Virus record (IMG/VR): IMGVR_UViG_3300023174_000288
Span: 1-43,862 of that record
DNA: 43,862 nucleotides
From: a virus
Strand: one strand, 5' to 3'
Position numbers and translations under genes: made by a program. The notes beneath the pieces were generated by a model that had not been told where the DNA came from, ran no database searches, and saw nothing but the letters and a program-made list of their open reading frames with translations. This document shows positions 25,764-36,367 of the stretch, piece by piece (within the stretch, counting starts at the first letter, position 1; every line of letters starts with the position of its first letter).

Positions 25764-26954
25764 ATGAATATTGAAGATCTTGTGATTTTTTCTGTTAGAA
25801 ACGGCATCCCGTTAAATTCTTGGGACAGTCGTCTAGTGAACAGTATATACGAACAGATCATTTTTAAAAATAGCCTGACCGAAAAGCAAGGCGCTGCCAT
25901 GGTAAAGATTCTAAAACGATACCAATCAGCGATTTCTGCTCAAGCAGGTCAGGATATTTCACAATTTTTGGAAAATCCCTCATATCGCTTGGGTATTAGA
26001 AAAGTCAACACGATCAAACGCATCACCATAGTTGATCACGATCAATACGGTAAAGCAGTGCAGGTAGAATTTCCATTCGATCAAAAAATTATTGAATCCA
26101 TTAAAGATAAAAAAAACATTAATCATGCAGGTCAATGGAATTCTGAAAAAAAATCCTGGATTTTTCCCCTAAGCGAATATAGCATTGCACATTTGACAAA
26201 AATTGCCCAAGAAAATGCATTTGAAATGGACACAGAATTTAGTTCCTATGCAGAACAATATAATACAATTGTCAAAAACATAGAGCAATACATACCCATA
26301 CTAGTGGCAGAAAATGATGGGGTAAAAATTCGCAATTTTGATGAAAAATTGGTGAATTTTTCGCCTGAAAATATACTAAAATCTGTCTTTGAGGCAAGAA
26401 AATTAGGAGTTTTGACCTGGGGCGAAAACATTGAGGAATACCTTAAAACCGACGATATTAGCGAAACCACTAGAAATTTCTTAAAAAGCGATCCCAGTGA
26501 AGATTTCCATATCAACAGTGAAAAATATGACATTTTTTCACTGGCTGACATTGTGATCAATATGACGCCAACACTGTTTATTATTCCCGGTGGCAGCGAA
26601 TTGGAAAAATTACAGGCCTGTTGCGAATTCTTAAAAAATATCGGAATTGATTCGAGTAAAATTAGTGTGATGTTTAGACTACCAAAAGAAACCCACGAAA
26701 ATTTCAATAATTTTGTGAAAAATTCCGGTTTGAACAATCCTATCACAGATACTACCTGTGCTGTGTTTGTTAGCGGCAAGTTTCCTAAACCTGTACTTAA
26801 ATCTGGAATTAAATTTCACACAGTGATCAATTTAGGCTTTGATAACGTGCATTACAGCCTGAGAGATTTTGTGAAAAATCACGAAAATTTGGTATACTAC
26901 ACCGAAAAAATCAACCCCAAGCAAATGGAATTTACATGGCTTCTTGCAAAGTAA
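25764..26954 (+). CDS. HARP-like domain protein coupled to UvsW, no visible ATPase motif
   Basis: The 396-residue protein has a segment at about residues 98-150 (V-E-F-P-F-D...I-E-S-I-K...W-N-S-E-K-K-S-W-I-F-P-L) that resembles the HARP domain of SMARCAL1-type annealing helicases. The N-terminus contains L-T-E-K-Q-G-A-A-M-V-K-I-L-K-R-Y. The last ~130 residues (T-L-F-I-I-P-G-G-S...I-G-I-D-S-S-K-I-S-V...H-T-V-I-N-L-G-F-D-N-V) resemble a RecA-like helicase lobe, but I find no Walker A or DExx motif. Its 3' end overlaps the uvsW start by 19 bp, implying coupled translation and probably a joint function at replication forks. Confidence 0.7.
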   Translation: MNIEDLVIFSVRNGIPLNSWDSRLVNSIYEQIIFKNSLTEKQGAAMVKILKRYQSAISAQAGQDISQFLENPSYRLGIRKVNTIKRITIVDHDQYGKAVQVEFPFDQKIIESIKDKKNINHAGQWNSEKKSWIFPLSEYSIAHLTKIAQENAFEMDTEFSSYAEQYNTIVKNIEQYIPILVAENDGVKIRNFDEKLVNFSPENILKSVFEARKLGVLTWGENIEEYLKTDDISETTRNFLKSDPSEDFHINSEKYDIFSLADIVINMTPTLFIIPGGSELEKLQACCEFLKNIGIDSSKISVMFRLPKETHENFNNFVKNSGLNNPITDTTCAVFVSGKFPKPVLKSGIKFHTVINLGFDNVHYSLRDFVKNHENLVYYTEKINPKQMEFTWLLAK

Positions 26955-28396
26955 TAATCAAAGACGAAGTCAATGTTAAGATTGAAAATCTCGATCTTGA
27001 CACTCGTAAAGCACTGGTCAAAAAATTCAAATATGAAGACCCTAGTGCCCGTTTTCGCCCCAGTTTTCGCCTGGGTCGCTGGGATGGCAGCATCAGTTTC
27101 TTTGGACTGGGCGGAACCACTTACATGAGCATGTTGCCCCAAGTATTAGAGTACCTAGAAGGTCGAAATTTCTACATTGAACTGGAAGATCACCGCAGTG
27201 CTATCAACCTGGATTTTGAGGCTATTGACACTGATTTTTGGGGGGATCTGACTTGGCCAACCGGACATCGTTTTGCTGGACAACCTATCAGATTACGTGA
27301 AGATCAAGTGGATGTTATCAATATGTTTCTCAAACATCCACAATGTATTCAAGAAATTGCTACTGGTTTTGGCAAAACCATTACTACCGCAACTCTGAGC
27401 AAAATCTGTGAAAAATTCGGTCGTACAATTACCATTGTTCCTAACAAAAGTCTAGTGGAACAGACTGAAGAAGATTTTATTAATTGTCGTTTAGACGTAG
27501 GAGTTTACTACGGAGACAGAAAAGATCTAGATCGAACTCACACAATCTGCACTTGGCAAAGTCTTAATATTTTAGACAAAAACAGCAAGAATTATGACGA
27601 CATTGCCGCCTTCAAATTAGAAGAATTATTAGACAATGTTCAGACAGTTATGGTGGATGAAGTCCATATGGCCAAGGCAGAAGTGTTGAAAAACCTACTG
27701 ACTCGCAACTTGTCGCAAACCCCGATCAGGTGGGGATTGACTGGAACTATTCCCAAGGCTGAACACGAATTTCAAGCCATCAAAGCCAGTCTAGGCGAAG
27801 TGGTAAATCGTGTTCAAGCACATACATTACAAGAGTCCGGAGTGCTGAGTCAATGTCATGTAAATATTGTTCAGACTGCCGAATGGAAAGAATTTCGTAG
27901 CTATCAAGAAGAATTAAAATACCTGGTCTGTGATGAAGTCAGAATGACTTATATTGCTGGATTAATCAGTCGTATTGCGGAATCTGGTAATACGCTGATA
28001 CTGGTAGACAGAATTGAAAGTGGTAAGTTTTTGGTTGAAAATTTACCAGATAGTGTTTTTGTATCCGGCGAAGTCAAAACAAAAAACAGGAAAGAACACT
28101 ATGACGAAATCAAAACTGCCGACAATAAAATTATCGTGGCCACTTATGGCGTTGCTGCCGTCGGTATTAATATTCCCAGGATTTTTAATTTGGTCCTGTT
28201 GGAACCAGGAAAAAGTTTTGTGCGAGTTATTCAAAGCATTGGACGAGGAATTAGAAAAGCCGACGACAAAGACTTTGTACAGATCTGGGACATAACAGCC
28301 GCAGCCAAATACGCAAAACGGCATCTCACAGATCGTAAACGCTTCTACAAAGAAGCACAATACCCCTTCACTATTGAAAAAGTAAAATACCAATAA
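26936..28396 (+). CDS. uvsW: UvsW helicase
   Basis: UvsW is a superfamily 2 helicase that unwinds branched DNA and regresses stalled forks. In the 486-residue protein the N-terminal DNA-binding domain holds R-F-R-P-S-F-R-L-G-R-W-D-G (residues ~39-51), then the Q-type region R-L-R-E-D-Q, Walker A A-T-G-F-G-K-T (142-148), D-E-V-H (241-244), G-L-T-G-T motif III, and motif VI I-Q-S-I-G-R-G-I-R. Its length matches T4 UvsW (~500). The start lies inside the preceding HARP-like gene. Confidence 0.95.
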   Translation: MASCKVIIKDEVNVKIENLDLDTRKALVKKFKYEDPSARFRPSFRLGRWDGSISFFGLGGTTYMSMLPQVLEYLEGRNFYIELEDHRSAINLDFEAIDTDFWGDLTWPTGHRFAGQPIRLREDQVDVINMFLKHPQCIQEIATGFGKTITTATLSKICEKFGRTITIVPNKSLVEQTEEDFINCRLDVGVYYGDRKDLDRTHTICTWQSLNILDKNSKNYDDIAAFKLEELLDNVQTVMVDEVHMAKAEVLKNLLTRNLSQTPIRWGLTGTIPKAEHEFQAIKASLGEVVNRVQAHTLQESGVLSQCHVNIVQTAEWKEFRSYQEELKYLVCDEVRMTYIAGLISRIAESGNTLILVDRIESGKFLVENLPDSVFVSGEVKTKNRKEHYDEIKTADNKIIVATYGVAAVGINIPRIFNLVLLEPGKSFVRVIQSIGRGIRKADDKDFVQIWDITAAAKYAKRHLTDRKRFYKEAQYPFTIEKVKYQ

Positions 28397-29593: not shown

Positions 29594-30284
29594 TTTGATC
29601 TTGGCACAACCATATAAATGTGCTCATTGCAGCACCAGTTTTATGAAAGAACGAACTCTCATGGCTCATATGTGTGAGAAGAAACGTCGCGCTATGCAAC
29701 GAGATGAAAAACGTGTACAAGCAGGGTTTATGGCATTTAATCGCTTTTGGCAATTGACCCAAGGTGCTAAAAAACCCAAGACCTACGAAGAATTTTGCGA
29801 TAGCAGCTATTACAACGCCTTTGTAAAATTTGGCAGTTTTATTAACAATGTCAACCCACTATATCCGGATCGTTTTGTAGACCATGTGATTAAGAGTGGG
29901 GTTAAATTAGATCATTGGTGTAGAGATGAACTGTACGACACTTACCTATATGACATGATAAAAATTGAACCAGTAGAAAGTGCAGTAGAACGCAGTTTAA
30001 AAACTATGATGGAATGGGGAGACGAACAAAAGGCAGAATTTGCACATTATTTCAATTACGTTAGCCTGAGTCGGGCAGTACACGATATACGTAATGGAAA
30101 TATCAGTTGTTGGCTTATATTAAATTCGGCCAGCGGCAAAGAAATGATTGGCAATATGAGCGACGAGCAACTGGAAATGATTGCTCCTGCTTTTGATGTG
30201 CCTTATTGGATTAAGAGATTTAGAGAATTACCGGCAGATGTTGCCCTAGTACGAGAAATTTGTGAAGAGGTAGGAATTAAATGA
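29586..30284 (+). CDS. Zinc-finger protein, unknown function
   Basis: I chose ATG 29586, overlapping the previous stop by 8 bp; the upstream in-frame start at 29562 is a TTG and improbable. The 232-residue protein starts with a single CCHC-type zinc finger: Y-K-C-A-H-C (C12, C15) ... M-A-H-M-C (H28, C30), followed by a basic K-K-R-R. The rest (~200 residues) is a helical domain with F-V-K-F-G-S-F-I-N-N-V and G-V-K-L-D-H-W-C. DNA or RNA binding is likely from the finger; the remainder is unrecognised. Its stop overlaps the cupin start as ATGA. Confidence 0.75.
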   Translation: MSDLILAQPYKCAHCSTSFMKERTLMAHMCEKKRRAMQRDEKRVQAGFMAFNRFWQLTQGAKKPKTYEEFCDSSYYNAFVKFGSFINNVNPLYPDRFVDHVIKSGVKLDHWCRDELYDTYLYDMIKIEPVESAVERSLKTMMEWGDEQKAEFAHYFNYVSLSRAVHDIRNGNISCWLILNSASGKEMIGNMSDEQLEMIAPAFDVPYWIKRFRELPADVALVREICEEVGIK

Positions 30285-30637
30285 GATTAGAAGGTTTTGT
30301 AGAAAAAGGTTGGGGACACGAATTAATTTGGGCTACCAACGACAAGTATTGCGGAAAACTGCTGAAGTTTGACAAGGGTGCTAAATTCAGTATGCACTTT
30401 CACGCTGTAAAAGATGAAACTTGGTATGTGCTAGATGGACGGTTTGAAGTTCGTTGGATTAATACAAAGAACGCTACTACAGATAGCCGCACACTGATGC
30501 CCGGTGATACTTGGCGTAATGAACCATTGTTGCCACATCAGGTGATCTGTATCGAAGAAGGCACCATTATCGAAGTCAGCACACCAGACAGTGTGGAAGA
30601 CAATTATCGTGTGGGCAAAGGCGACAGTCAACAATAA
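30281..30637 (+). CDS. Cupin-domain protein
   Basis: A single cupin barrel of 118 residues. The metal-binding set is visible: H39-F-H41-x4-E46 in M-H-F-H-A-V-K-D-E-T-W-Y and H86 in L-L-P-H-Q-V. The sequence context (K-G-W-G-H-E-L near the start and W-Y-V-L-D-G) is like the C-terminal cupin of type II mannose-6-phosphate isomerases, but without a nucleotidyltransferase domain. A role in sugar or nucleotide-sugar metabolism is possible; no partner enzyme is adjacent. It overlaps the zinc-finger gene by 4 nt. Confidence 0.85.
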   Translation: MRLEGFVEKGWGHELIWATNDKYCGKLLKFDKGAKFSMHFHAVKDETWYVLDGRFEVRWINTKNATTDSRTLMPGDTWRNEPLLPHQVICIEEGTIIEVSTPDSVEDNYRVGKGDSQQ

Positions 30638-30638
30638 A

Positions 30639-31205
30639 ATGGATATTGATATCGATTTTGCTGATCGTAATAGTGTGCTGGAAATTATCCAGCACATTCC
30701 GGCCAGTCTTGATGGCAGTAAACGACACAATACCGGAGTGTATTGCCACGAGATACCTGTCAATCCATTAACAGGAACAGCCAGTATTGATTATAAAACT
30801 GCTGAAGAACGGGGATACTTTAAGATAGATTTCCTCAATGTTAATGTTTATAAAAATATTAAAAATAGTCAACACTTAGAAACACTAATGGAAACCGAGC
30901 CTCTATGGGATTTATTGGAACAAGATGAATTTGTTAACTTGCTATTCCACGTTAGCGGCCACGGAAATCTATTGCGTCAAACCCGACCACGCACTGTAGA
31001 ACAACTGGCCGCAGTATTGGCAATGATTCGTCCTGCTAAGAGATATCTAGTAGGACAAGATTGGGATACCATATTAAATGAAGTATGGACTAAACCCACT
31101 AATGATGATTATTATTTTAAGAAATCCCACGCATTAAGTTATGCCATGGTAGTTATAGTTCATATGAACTTGATCTGCGAAAGCATTAGCCACGAGTACT
31201 CTTAG
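30639..31205 (+). CDS. Miniature DNA polymerase III alpha (DnaE)-like protein
   Basis: I chose the ATG at 30639, 1 nt after the cupin stop, giving 188 residues. Motifs follow C-family polymerases in order: D-I-D-I-D-F at residues 2-7 (matching the catalytic P-D-x-D-x-D-F), R-H-N-T-G-V at 29-34, F-K-I-D-F-L at 61-66 (third catalytic Asp, D64), L-F-H-V-S-G-H-G-N-L-L at 102-112 (like V-F-Q-x-E-x-x-G-M), P-R-T-V-E-Q-L-A-A-V-L-A-M-I-R-P at 117-132, and F-K-K-S-H-A-L-S-Y-A at 160-169 (like F-N-K-S-H-A-A-A-Y). The PHP, thumb, clamp-binding and OB regions are absent. Polymerase activity is uncertain at this size; an accessory or interference role is equally possible. Confidence 0.78.
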   Translation: MDIDIDFADRNSVLEIIQHIPASLDGSKRHNTGVYCHEIPVNPLTGTASIDYKTAEERGYFKIDFLNVNVYKNIKNSQHLETLMETEPLWDLLEQDEFVNLLFHVSGHGNLLRQTRPRTVEQLAAVLAMIRPAKRYLVGQDWDTILNEVWTKPTNDDYYFKKSHALSYAMVVIVHMNLICESISHEYS

Positions 31206-31569
31206 GTATTCTAACCAACTGAATACTTTTTCTCTTTACTCGTTTTTCTGCTATTTCGCTGAGATTTACAGTGGGACCAAAAACTATTTCAACATCTTTA
31301 CTGTTGAATGTTTTTATGGCATAACGAAACGCTGTCATTTCACTTTTTAAGAAAATGTTTATGGGTATTCGCCTATTGCTTTCCCACCACCAAACTTCGC
31401 CCAGTTCGAGAAATTGATTTTTAGCATCAATATCTTTAATCACTGCAATATCATATATGCTGGCCACATACGAATCGAAATTAATAATAATTCCTACATA
31501 TTCTGTTTCGTTGGATTTAATACAGGATACGAATGGATAGTTGTGTTGAAACTGGTTGTGTAGACTCAT
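31186..31569 (-). CDS. Conserved-looking hypothetical protein
   Basis: The 127-residue minus-strand protein has E-Y-V-G-I-I-I-N-F-D-S-Y-V-A-S-I-Y-D-I-A-V-I-K-D near residues 23-46, then L-G-E-V-W-W-W-E-S-N-R-R-I-P-I-N-I-F and a basic C-terminus. No domain is recognised; a mixed alpha/beta fold is likely. It overlaps the DnaE-like gene by 20 bp tail to tail. It stands divergently from the structural gene at 31592, with only 22 bp between the two start codons. Confidence 0.7.
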   Translation of the reverse strand: MSLHNQFQHNYPFVSCIKSNETEYVGIIINFDSYVASIYDIAVIKDIDAKNQFLELGEVWWWESNRRIPINIFLKSEMTAFRYAIKTFNSKDVEIVFGPTVNLSEIAEKRVKRKSIQLVRIPKSTRG

Positions 31570-32643: not shown

Positions 32644-33639
32644 GTGGACTTCTCAACTACAATATTATCTCTAATCCCGGGCCGCCGTAAAACTACACCC
32701 AGTGGGTGGATCAGTTTTGACGCCGTTTGCTGTCATCATATGGGCCAAGCACCAGATACTCGCAGTCGAGGAGGTATATTAACAACACCAGAAAGTGGGT
32801 TTCAATATCACTGCTTCAACTGCGGATTCAAGGCTGGCTGGAGCCCAGGACGATTACTGACCACCAATACCAAACGACTTTGCCAATGGTTAGGTATGGG
32901 GTCTGATGATATCAGCAAACTAAATCTCGAATTGATGCGGCAACAGCAAAAGACCGCACCTGCGCTAAAAAGTTTAGCAAATCTCACGCTGGAAGATCGA
33001 GAATTACCATCAGATACTCGCACACTAAAAGAATGGGCACAAGCAGATCTCCCAGAGCCAGTTGTAAAAATGTTTGAATATTTGGTTATGAGGGGTATGG
33101 ATATTGATTGGTATCCTTGGATGTGGTCTCCGGCCGATGGGTACAGAGATAGACTGATTATACCATTTTATCACGAAAAAAGAACAGTAGGATTTACTGC
33201 CCGTAAAATTACACCAGGTAAACCAAAATATCTCAATGTGAGCCAACCTGGATATGTTTTTAATCTTGACGCACAAACTGCCAATTACGATAGGAAATAT
33301 TGTATAGTTGTAGAAGGACAGTTTGATGCCATTGCTGTGGACGGTGTGGCCATAATGACCAACGAAGTCAGCAAAAATCAAGCAGCAAGAATTACTGCGT
33401 TAAATAGAGACACTATTGTTGTACCTGACCAAGATGCCGCAGGTGCTGCTATGATTAAATCCGCACTGGACCACAATTGGTCAGTCAGTATTCCCCCGTG
33501 GGGAGAAAACATTAAGGACGTTGCCGATGCTGTGAAACAATACGGTAGGCTGTATACAATGGCCACCATACTACACTATAGAGAAACTAACCCAATAAAA
33601 ATTCAACTGTTATATAAGAAACTGTCTAATGCCAATTAA
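32644..33639 (+). CDS. gp61: DNA primase gp61
   Basis: gp61 makes RNA primers with helicase gp41. The 331-residue frame starts at GTG 32644, since no in-frame ATG fits before the zinc region. A zinc-ribbon is visible as C-C-H-H (from ~29) and Y-H-C-F-N-C-G-F (~57-64). The TOPRIM core shows V-V-E-G-Q-F-D-A-I-A (~222-231, catalytic Glu) and V-V-P-D-Q-D-A-A-G (the D-x-D region). The length matches T4 gp61 (342). It overlaps gene 41 by 11 bp, reflecting the primase-helicase partnership. Confidence 0.92.
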   Translation: MDFSTTILSLIPGRRKTTPSGWISFDAVCCHHMGQAPDTRSRGGILTTPESGFQYHCFNCGFKAGWSPGRLLTTNTKRLCQWLGMGSDDISKLNLELMRQQQKTAPALKSLANLTLEDRELPSDTRTLKEWAQADLPEPVVKMFEYLVMRGMDIDWYPWMWSPADGYRDRLIIPFYHEKRTVGFTARKITPGKPKYLNVSQPGYVFNLDAQTANYDRKYCIVVEGQFDAIAVDGVAIMTNEVSKNQAARITALNRDTIVVPDQDAAGAAMIKSALDHNWSVSIPPWGENIKDVADAVKQYGRLYTMATILHYRETNPIKIQLLYKKLSNAN

Positions 33640-35071
33640 AACCGAAAAACCCAACTACGAAATCGAAGTTCAGAAAGTTTTCCTAGAACTGTTCCTCGGC
33701 GATGCTGAAACATTTATGCGTTGCCAAAACATTTTTGATCCAGAAAATTTTGACCAACGACTGCGTAAGCCTGCGGAATTTATTACCAAGTACGTTGACG
33801 AATATAGGGTTATGCCCGAAGTGTCTATTGTCAATGCCAACTGTGGTACCAATTTTGAAAAAGTCAGTGTACCAAAAGAAACCTATGAATGGCTAATGGA
33901 TCACTTTGAACAATTCAGCAGACATCAGGCATTGGCAAGGGCCATTTATGCCAGCGCTGATCTACTGGAAAAGGGCGATTACGGTCCTGTGGAACGCCTG
34001 GTCAAAGACGCAATGCAGATCAGTTTGAATAAAGACATGGGCACTGACTATTTTGAAGACCCTAGAGAACGACTTACCCGACTGAAAGACGGAAATGGAC
34101 AAGTCAGTACCGGTTGGCCCACTATAGATAAAAAACTCTATGGCGGTTTCAACCGCGGAGAACTGAATATTTTCTGTGCAGGATCTGGTGGTGGTAAAAG
34201 TTTATTCCTTGCCAATCTTGGTATAAATTGGGCATTGGCTGGATTGAATGTACTGTATCTAACTTTCGAACTTAGTGAAGGTTTGGTCAGTATGCGACTG
34301 GATAGTATGACCACAGGTATTGCAACTCGTGAGATTTTTAAAAGTATCGATGACGTTGAACTCAAAGTAAAAATGATGGGCAAACGTGCAGGAAATCTGC
34401 AGGTCAAGTATATGCCCAGTGGTAAAAATTGTAACGATATTCGCGCCTATTTAAAAGAATATCAGGTCAAAAAAGGTGTAAAACCTGACGTTTTGTTAAT
34501 AGATTACTTGGATTTGATGATGCCTTTAAGCGTGAAGGTCTCGCCCAGTGATCTGTTTGTTAAAGACAAATATGTGTCAGAAGAGATCCGCAACCTGGCA
34601 ATGGAGACACAATGTGTCACAGTGACAGCCAGTCAGTTGAATAGATCGGCTGTGGAGGAGATCGAATTTGATCACAGCCATATCAGTGGTGGACTCAGTA
34701 AGATCATGACAGCAGACAATGTGATCGGTATCTTTACCAGTCGTGCTATGAAAGAACGTGGTCGTTATCAAATACAGTTTATGAAAACTCGCAGCAGCAG
34801 TGGTGTGGGTCAAAAGGTGGATTTGGAATTTAACTTGGACACACTGCGTATTACAGACCTAGGTGAAGAAGCCAGTGAACCCAGTTTCCGAGAACAACAG
34901 GCAGCCAGTGTAGTGAATAATCTCAAACGCACCAGTGTAGTTACCACTGCCAGTAATGAATCAGATGACATTGACCCTAATGCAGGATCTGGATTCCGCA
35001 GACCCATAGCCAAAGCGTCGGCCCCGCTGATTCGTTCTATGATGACTAAATTAAATCCTGAAAAGGATTAG
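33629..35071 (+). CDS. gp41: Replicative DNA helicase gp41
   Basis: The 480-residue protein is a DnaB-like hexameric 5'-3' helicase. The N-terminal ~140 residues form the helical partner domain. The RecA core follows: G-S-G-G-G-K-S (Walker A, ~residues 185-191), F-E-L-S-E-G-L (catalytic Glu region), V-L-L-I-D-Y-L-D-L-M (Walker B, ~288-297), T-A-S-Q-L-N-R (sensor) and a basic finger R-G-R-Y-Q-I-Q-F-M-K-T-R. The acidic C-terminal tail resembles the gp59/gp61-interaction region of T4 gp41 (475 residues). Confidence 0.96.
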   Translation: MPIKTEKPNYEIEVQKVFLELFLGDAETFMRCQNIFDPENFDQRLRKPAEFITKYVDEYRVMPEVSIVNANCGTNFEKVSVPKETYEWLMDHFEQFSRHQALARAIYASADLLEKGDYGPVERLVKDAMQISLNKDMGTDYFEDPRERLTRLKDGNGQVSTGWPTIDKKLYGGFNRGELNIFCAGSGGGKSLFLANLGINWALAGLNVLYLTFELSEGLVSMRLDSMTTGIATREIFKSIDDVELKVKMMGKRAGNLQVKYMPSGKNCNDIRAYLKEYQVKKGVKPDVLLIDYLDLMMPLSVKVSPSDLFVKDKYVSEEIRNLAMETQCVTVTASQLNRSAVEEIEFDHSHISGGLSKIMTADNVIGIFTSRAMKERGRYQIQFMKTRSSSGVGQKVDLEFNLDTLRITDLGEEASEPSFREQQAASVVNNLKRTSVVTTASNESDDIDPNAGSGFRRPIAKASAPLIRSMMTKLNPEKD

Positions 35072-35665: not shown

Positions 35666-36367
35666 ATGAAATTAACACAGGTCATTGCTCCGGCCGTAGA
35701 GCTGCATAACACTCTTAATCCTAAAATATGGACAGGTCAAAACCTACGACCCGAAGTACGATCTGCACTGATAAAAATTGCTAGATCATTTCAGAAATTT
35801 GTCGACATTCCGTTTGAGATTGAAGATCTTATTGTTACCGGCAGCAATGCCAACTATACCTACACAGAACACAGCGATCTTGATCTACACCTTATTGTAG
35901 ATCTTAACAGAGTTGAATGTGCTAGAGAAGCTGAAGAACTTTTTGATACTAAGAGACTGTTGTTCAAACGTGAACACGCAATCACTATACGAGATATACC
36001 CGTAGAGATCTATGTGGAAAATCTCAACGAACCGGTAAAAGGCGCAGTGTACAGCTTATATAAAAATCAATGGATAACACCACCTGAACAACAAGAAGAA
36101 CCCGACGTAGACTTTGCTGCTGTGGAACGTATGACTCGTATATGGGGTAGATTAATTCAACGTGCTGTCATACACGCACACCTACCAACCTGTGAACGAC
36201 TAATGGAACTGTTACGCAAATACAGACGCATGGGATTAAACACACCAGACGGTGAATTTAGCAAAGGAAATCTAGTCTATAAGAGCTTACGCAATAGCGG
36301 CAGTGTAGAAGCGCTGGCCGTGATGTTAGACCGCTTACACGATCAAAAACTAAGTATTAGTCAATAA
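35666..36367 (+). CDS. Nucleotidyltransferase (polymerase beta-like fold)
   Basis: The 233-residue protein has the NTase signature: I-V-T-G-S-N-A-N-Y at 57-64 (G59-S60), followed by H-S-D-L-D-L-H-L at 69-76, with metal-binding D71 and D73. A third carboxylate is likely Glu114 in I-P-V-E-I-Y. The C-terminal ~110 residues are helical and basic, without a recognised domain. It could transfer a nucleotide to RNA, protein or a small molecule; the target is unknown. It is followed 18 bp later by a nucleotidase gene. Confidence 0.82.
   Translation: MKLTQVIAPAVELHNTLNPKIWTGQNLRPEVRSALIKIARSFQKFVDIPFEIEDLIVTGSNANYTYTEHSDLDLHLIVDLNRVECAREAEELFDTKRLLFKREHAITIRDIPVEIYVENLNEPVKGAVYSLYKNQWITPPEQQEEPDVDFAAVERMTRIWGRLIQRAVIHAHLPTCERLMELLRKYRRMGLNTPDGEFSKGNLVYKSLRNSGSVEALAVMLDRLHDQKLSISQ

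Follow-up and report, generated by a model that had tools for sequence, protein, structure and literature searches.

Why should a phage with a T4-like replication cluster encode a protein of 188 residues that carries the motifs of bacterial C-family DNA polymerases? The question is raised by a single gene (Table 1) in a 43,862-base stretch of viral DNA (IMG/VR record IMGVR_UViG_3300023174_000288), hereafter the window. With relatives of 286-490 kb, this stretch is presumably one piece of a larger, uncultured phage genome. The original prediction, made from the letters of the DNA, had left the choice between a minimal polymerase, a repair nucleotidyltransferase and a decoy of the host holoenzyme. 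All of the motifs that it quoted are found in the protein in the order claimed, and the size is indeed about one sixth of that of DnaE (188 aa versus ~1160 aa). We regard as the probable answer a minimal C-family polymerase built from two proteins that dock and extend primers, of which this one forms the C-terminal half. Translation from an in-frame GTG at 30591 would lengthen the product to 204 aa; we favour the ATG at 30639 because relatives begin within a few residues of DIDIDF.

Table 1. Features of the window, with positions counted from its first base
Feature	Positions	Strand	Remark
Protein between UvsY and UvsW	25764-26954	+	396 aa; zero PHROG or Pfam matches
UvsW-type helicase	26936-28396	+	Upstream end of the conserved neighbourhood
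Cupin	30281-30637	+	118 aa; directly upstream of the C half; phrog_7851 'cysteine dioxygenase', Pfam Cupin_2; detected in just 12 of 48 loci
C half of a predicted split minimal Pol III alpha	30639-31205	+	188 aa; metal-binding palm strands and reduced fingers
DIDID codons (D2-x-D4-x-D6)	30642-30656	+	E. coli DnaE D401/D403/D405; invariant (n=66); M. tuberculosis DnaE 415-424 by motif correspondence; Taq 462 is the start of the fold alignment
KID codons (K62-x-D64)	30822-30830	+	E. coli K553/D555; invariant (n=66)
H164 codon (FKKSHA)	31128-31130	+	E. coli DnaE H760; invariant; aligned to E. coli 752-767
Convergent small gene, phrog_11637	31186-31569	-	Kept in 46 of 48 loci; overlaps the end of the C half
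DnaG-type (gp61-like) primase	32644-33639	+	
DnaB/gp41-like replicative helicase	33629-35071	+	
Gene close to DnaB	35666-36367	+	Weak NTP_transf_2 / MTPAP-like match (E 0.001-0.002); possibly a second nucleotidyltransferase

The C-family (DnaE) homology that had been predicted is upheld by phage profiles and predicted fold together. In a PHROGs profile search, residues 1-182 matched positions 7-194 of the 197 in phrog_11778, annotated 'DNA polymerase', with an E-value of 3.6e-65. The family to which the full-length DnaE of Streptomyces and Bacillus phages belongs, phrog_405 (annotated DnaE-like Pol III alpha), shares the palm and finger motifs and matched at E 1.9e-6. Single-sequence profile matches are decisive for these phage families only: searches of Pfam, NCBIfam and PDB sequences were by themselves weak (E 0.003-0.3), and neither polc of NCBIfam (E 0.0034) nor DNA_pol3_finger of Pfam (E 0.03) reached the cut-off. 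A tRNA hydroxylase also came up weakly among PDB sequences (E 0.08) and was dismissed because the fold search gave it no support.

The structural comparison that the original prediction had called for places the C half on the palm and fingers of DnaE. Its AlphaFold model (pLDDT 93.6, pTM 0.81) aligns to Taq DnaE 462-841 over 184 of 188 residues (3.8 Å, Z 9.7) and also fits E. coli 401-781 and Geobacillus PolC 972-1299, with Z 9.0-9.7 across the three enzymes. Every one of the 15 best-matching solved structures is a Pol III alpha or a PolC (Z 6.1-9.7), and unrelated folds score Z 3.5 or lower. What the C half shares with bacterial DnaE (E. coli, Taq) is the palm strands, the DxDxD and KxD motifs and the steric-gate His. 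In contrast, about half of Taq 462-841 is without a counterpart in the C half, and the PHP, thumb, HhH, clamp-binding motif and OB parts are all missing from the 188-aa chain. The thumb's place in DnaE is taken by a spacing of just 23 residues between D6 and H30, and the fingers are reduced to 27 residues between P132 and F160, versus about 114 in DnaE. This loss of the thumb and of roughly 87 finger residues was counted against a polymerase reading. In DnaE, R390 and finger arginines contact the dNTP, and the missing finger segment is presumably where DnaE has further arginines of this kind.

The residues of the predicted active site are strictly conserved. Across 66 distinct C halves, D2, D4, D6, H30, G33, P40, K62, D64, L66 and L83 never vary, nor do W90, P117, L123, I130, R131, P132, K134, H164 and Y168. 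In M. tuberculosis DnaE the K62-x-D64 motif finds its counterpart in KMDFL, and K62 itself we take to be the E. coli palm lysine, K553. H164 corresponds to E. coli H760, the proposed steric gate of DnaE (PMC8485763). The catalytic aspartates are present as predicted, and it is the make-up of the trio that needs correcting: the metal-binding residues are most likely D2, D4 and D64, equivalent to E. coli D401, D403 and D555, which are absolutely conserved in the C-family (PMC3919608), while D6 is the equivalent of D405, a residue conserved in DnaE and replaced by Asn in PolC (PMC3919608). Because these four residues match their E. coli counterparts, including the DnaE-specific D405, the protein resembles DnaE rather than PolC. 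The register of DxDxD was set from three sources: correspondence of the motifs, the alignment with M. tuberculosis DnaE and the fact that the Taq alignment begins at 462. One local E. coli alignment is off by two residues.

A protein one sixth the length of DnaE, whose partner was termed 'truncated' by early authors (PMC5259590), might look like a truncated pseudogene, or like a full-length dnaE broken up in assembly. The conservation data refute this and leave the idea virtually no chance. About 60 phage records and 160 IMG/VR matches agree in the length and both ends of the C half, and no leftover parts of dnaE adjoin it. Comparisons with close relatives give dN/dS of 0.03-0.13, which together with the invariance in the 66 C halves indicates strong purifying selection with fixed catalytic residues. 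A tblastn search with the C half recovered 61 phage records at coverage of at least 80%; those among the matches listed are mostly jumbo phages (RaK2, 121Q, GAP32, CBB, PA5oct, Atu_ph07, Munch, SCTP-2, XacN1, Vibrio 2.275.O), and IMG/VR holds hundreds more homologues. Identity between the window C half and those of isolate phages is 35-53%. As to the suggestion that such relatives might be unannotated, not all of them are: some already carry labels such as 'DNA polymerase' and 'DnaE-like DNA polymerase III alpha'.

Among the bacterial and archaeal matches inspected, true relatives of the C half occur only on three MAG contigs (L289, L290 and L291, assigned to MAGs of Natrialbaceae, Rickettsiales and Pacearchaeota), which are probably jumbo-phage DNA misbinned into MAGs. 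A cellular origin was rejected, as the other inspected matches (L341, L292) sit in ORFs of >1500 codons; L341 is a PHP-containing, clearly full-length DnaE, and the remaining bacterial and archaeal matches follow the same partial pattern at 28-33%.

In the sequenced relatives, the rest of the predicted active site lies on another gene. This N half is a separate gene of ~175 aa (for example Atu_ph07 gp316 and CBB_328, which match PF07733 at E about 1e-8 over profile positions 18-95 of 260) with a GxGRGS triphosphate loop that is invariant in 70/70 cases; the Arg of GRGS is E. coli R362, counted from the alignment. It terminates in '...xEFL', directly ahead of the DxD motif that opens the C half. 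A stand-alone mini-polymerase is rejected because half of the palm, with the triphosphate-binding GRGS loop in it, is encoded by this second gene in relatives. Matches to PF07733 in relatives are N halves, most of which start near profile position 12-22 and end near 100; besides these, the search for a complete Pol III in relatives gave none, only one sub-threshold PF07733 match. Matches of phrog_405-type DnaE span a short stretch of the N-half query only.

The N-half model of a relative (L120; pLDDT 91.1) aligns through residues 74-173 to E. coli 278-393 (2.4-2.8 Å, Z 9.7-11.1), and its VIA list of fold matches consists of Pol III enzymes in every row. Set beside the E. coli 401-781 coverage of the C half, this means that the two models cover adjacent, non-overlapping parts of the DnaE core, and PDB-sequence profile alignments are consistent with that coverage. 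Residues 1-73 of the N half (L120:3004-3222) have no DnaE counterpart in the fold alignment and may form a new partner-binding domain.

The two halves also keep company across genomes. Exactly one N half was found in 14/14 C-half records of 286 kb or more, and of the 11 N-half records that reach 200 kb, 9 have a C half, with 15-224 kb between the two genes in named sequenced phages. No fusion turned up among 181 C-half and 105 N-half loci, and in none do both halves fall within the few kb of flank covered; together with the wide spacing of the genes, this was weighed against a two-protein polymerase. So were searches that failed to turn up the N half in the 164-kb fragment of a close relative and, by tblastn with two queries, in the 43.9-kb window; other short C-half fragments lack it too. 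Its absence from the window is as expected of a fragment, and the window's own phage is expected to carry it elsewhere. Distance matrices of the two halves correlate at r = 0.86 over 22 genomes, a value reached by 0/9,999 permutations; this is consistent with joint inheritance, and common vertical descent alone could produce it.

The same observations bear on the proposed decoy, a catalytically dead mimic of host Pol III alpha that would poison host replication, for example by binding clamp, tau or epsilon. Heavy domain loss would suit such a protein, as would the disappearance of some C-family contacts: where E. coli has R390, all 70 N halves carry Glu or Asp, a change likewise counted against a polymerase. 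However, the host-contacting parts of DnaE (clamp-binding, HhH, OB, CTD, PHP) are precisely those absent, whereas phages of hosts from Agrobacterium to Klebsiella all keep the metal-binding trio of Asp, the palm Lys, the GRGS motif and the steric-gate His without variation. Mimicry also needs no obligate second half. Because the partner-binding parts were lost while the chemistry was kept, we consider a decoy highly improbable, and this part of the original prediction is not sustained.

The gene neighbourhood is that of replication, as the original prediction had it. Of the 48 C-half loci that span at least 10 kb, 46 have primase and DnaB downstream and 39 have UvsW upstream, and the window, with UvsW, the C half and then primase-DnaB, has this same conserved layout; its gene cluster also includes UvsX and UvsY. 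Among N-half loci of 6 kb or more, a clamp loader falls within the 3-4 kb flank in 55/65. These synteny counts place each half in replication neighbourhoods of T4-type jumbo phages. The claim that a B-family polymerase coexists with the protein was confirmed in 15/15 relatives tested, including the 164-kb contig of an 87%-identical relative, and an A-family polymerase appeared in 0/15 genomes or records tested. Among the genes examined in the window, itself a fragment, no B-family polymerase was seen.

With a B-family replicase already in all relatives tested, the halves might instead form a non-processive nucleotidyltransferase, acting in the recombination-dependent replication of T4-type phages (UvsX/UvsY/UvsW) by Pol X-like gap-filling, end-trimming, repair or some NTP-using transfer. 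Their small size, the want of thumb, clamp and proofreading modules, and the presence of UvsX, UvsY and UvsW in the cluster speak for this main rival. However, the template-binding fingers and the invariant steric gate H164 have been kept, which suggests a templated dNTP polymerase, and the neighbours are primase, helicase and clamp loader. We judge it unlikely.

We therefore return to the two-protein polymerase as our preferred reading. The homology of both halves, their complementary coverage and co-occurrence, the invariance of the active site and the replication context are shown by computation; docking, catalysis and a role beside the B-family replicase we infer. Hypothetically, the C half would supply the three metal-binding Asp, the palm Lys, much reduced fingers and the steric-gate His, and the N half (PF07733) would bring the helices of the palm together with the GRGS loop that binds the triphosphate. 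Docking would take place at the loop where the chain is split (E. coli DnaE ~393 to ~401) and would rebuild one Pol beta-like active site; this palm-fingers site could then extend DNA primers beside the B-family replicase. Because thumb, clamp-binding, proofreading and OB parts are all lacking, processivity would come from partners, such as the primase-helicase, the clamp loader or the B-family polymerase. Labour may be divided with the B-family replicase through primer handover, lagging-strand patches or repair. A bolder version, to which we would give an even chance, is that this is the smallest C-family polymerase known, in which two unlinked gene products share an active site to form a thumbless, dedicated second polymerase beside the B-family replicase; its recruitment would fall to the primase-helicase and the clamp loader of the phage.

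The window protein is a further member of an already published system. A split minimal Pol III was described in 'group 2.2' jumbo phages by Iyer et al. 2021, who proposed the same two-half polymerase model (PMC7824862), and the N half had been noted earlier as a truncated alpha subunit (PMC5259590) and as a Pol III alpha subunit (PMC6102473). The window protein is like that system and phrog_11778 in size and motifs; the division into an N (NTP-binding) and a C (Mg/template-binding) half in distant genes and a coexisting B-family polymerase are common to the relatives. Nothing essential differs, the present member lying on an uncultured-phage fragment in which no N half was seen. In the literature searched, we found no biochemical test of the 2021 proposal. 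What is new here is the exact position of the split, in the loop that precedes DxD, the invariant catalytic residues and steric gate, the one-to-one pairing and co-divergence of the halves, their synteny with clamp loader and primase-helicase, and confident models of both.

A conserved split point and two confidently modelled halves make the 2021 proposal directly testable. If active, the N and C halves would reveal the smallest set of parts that a bacterial-type replicase needs, and that two chains are able to make up its active site. It would also follow that some T4-type phages run two unrelated polymerases.
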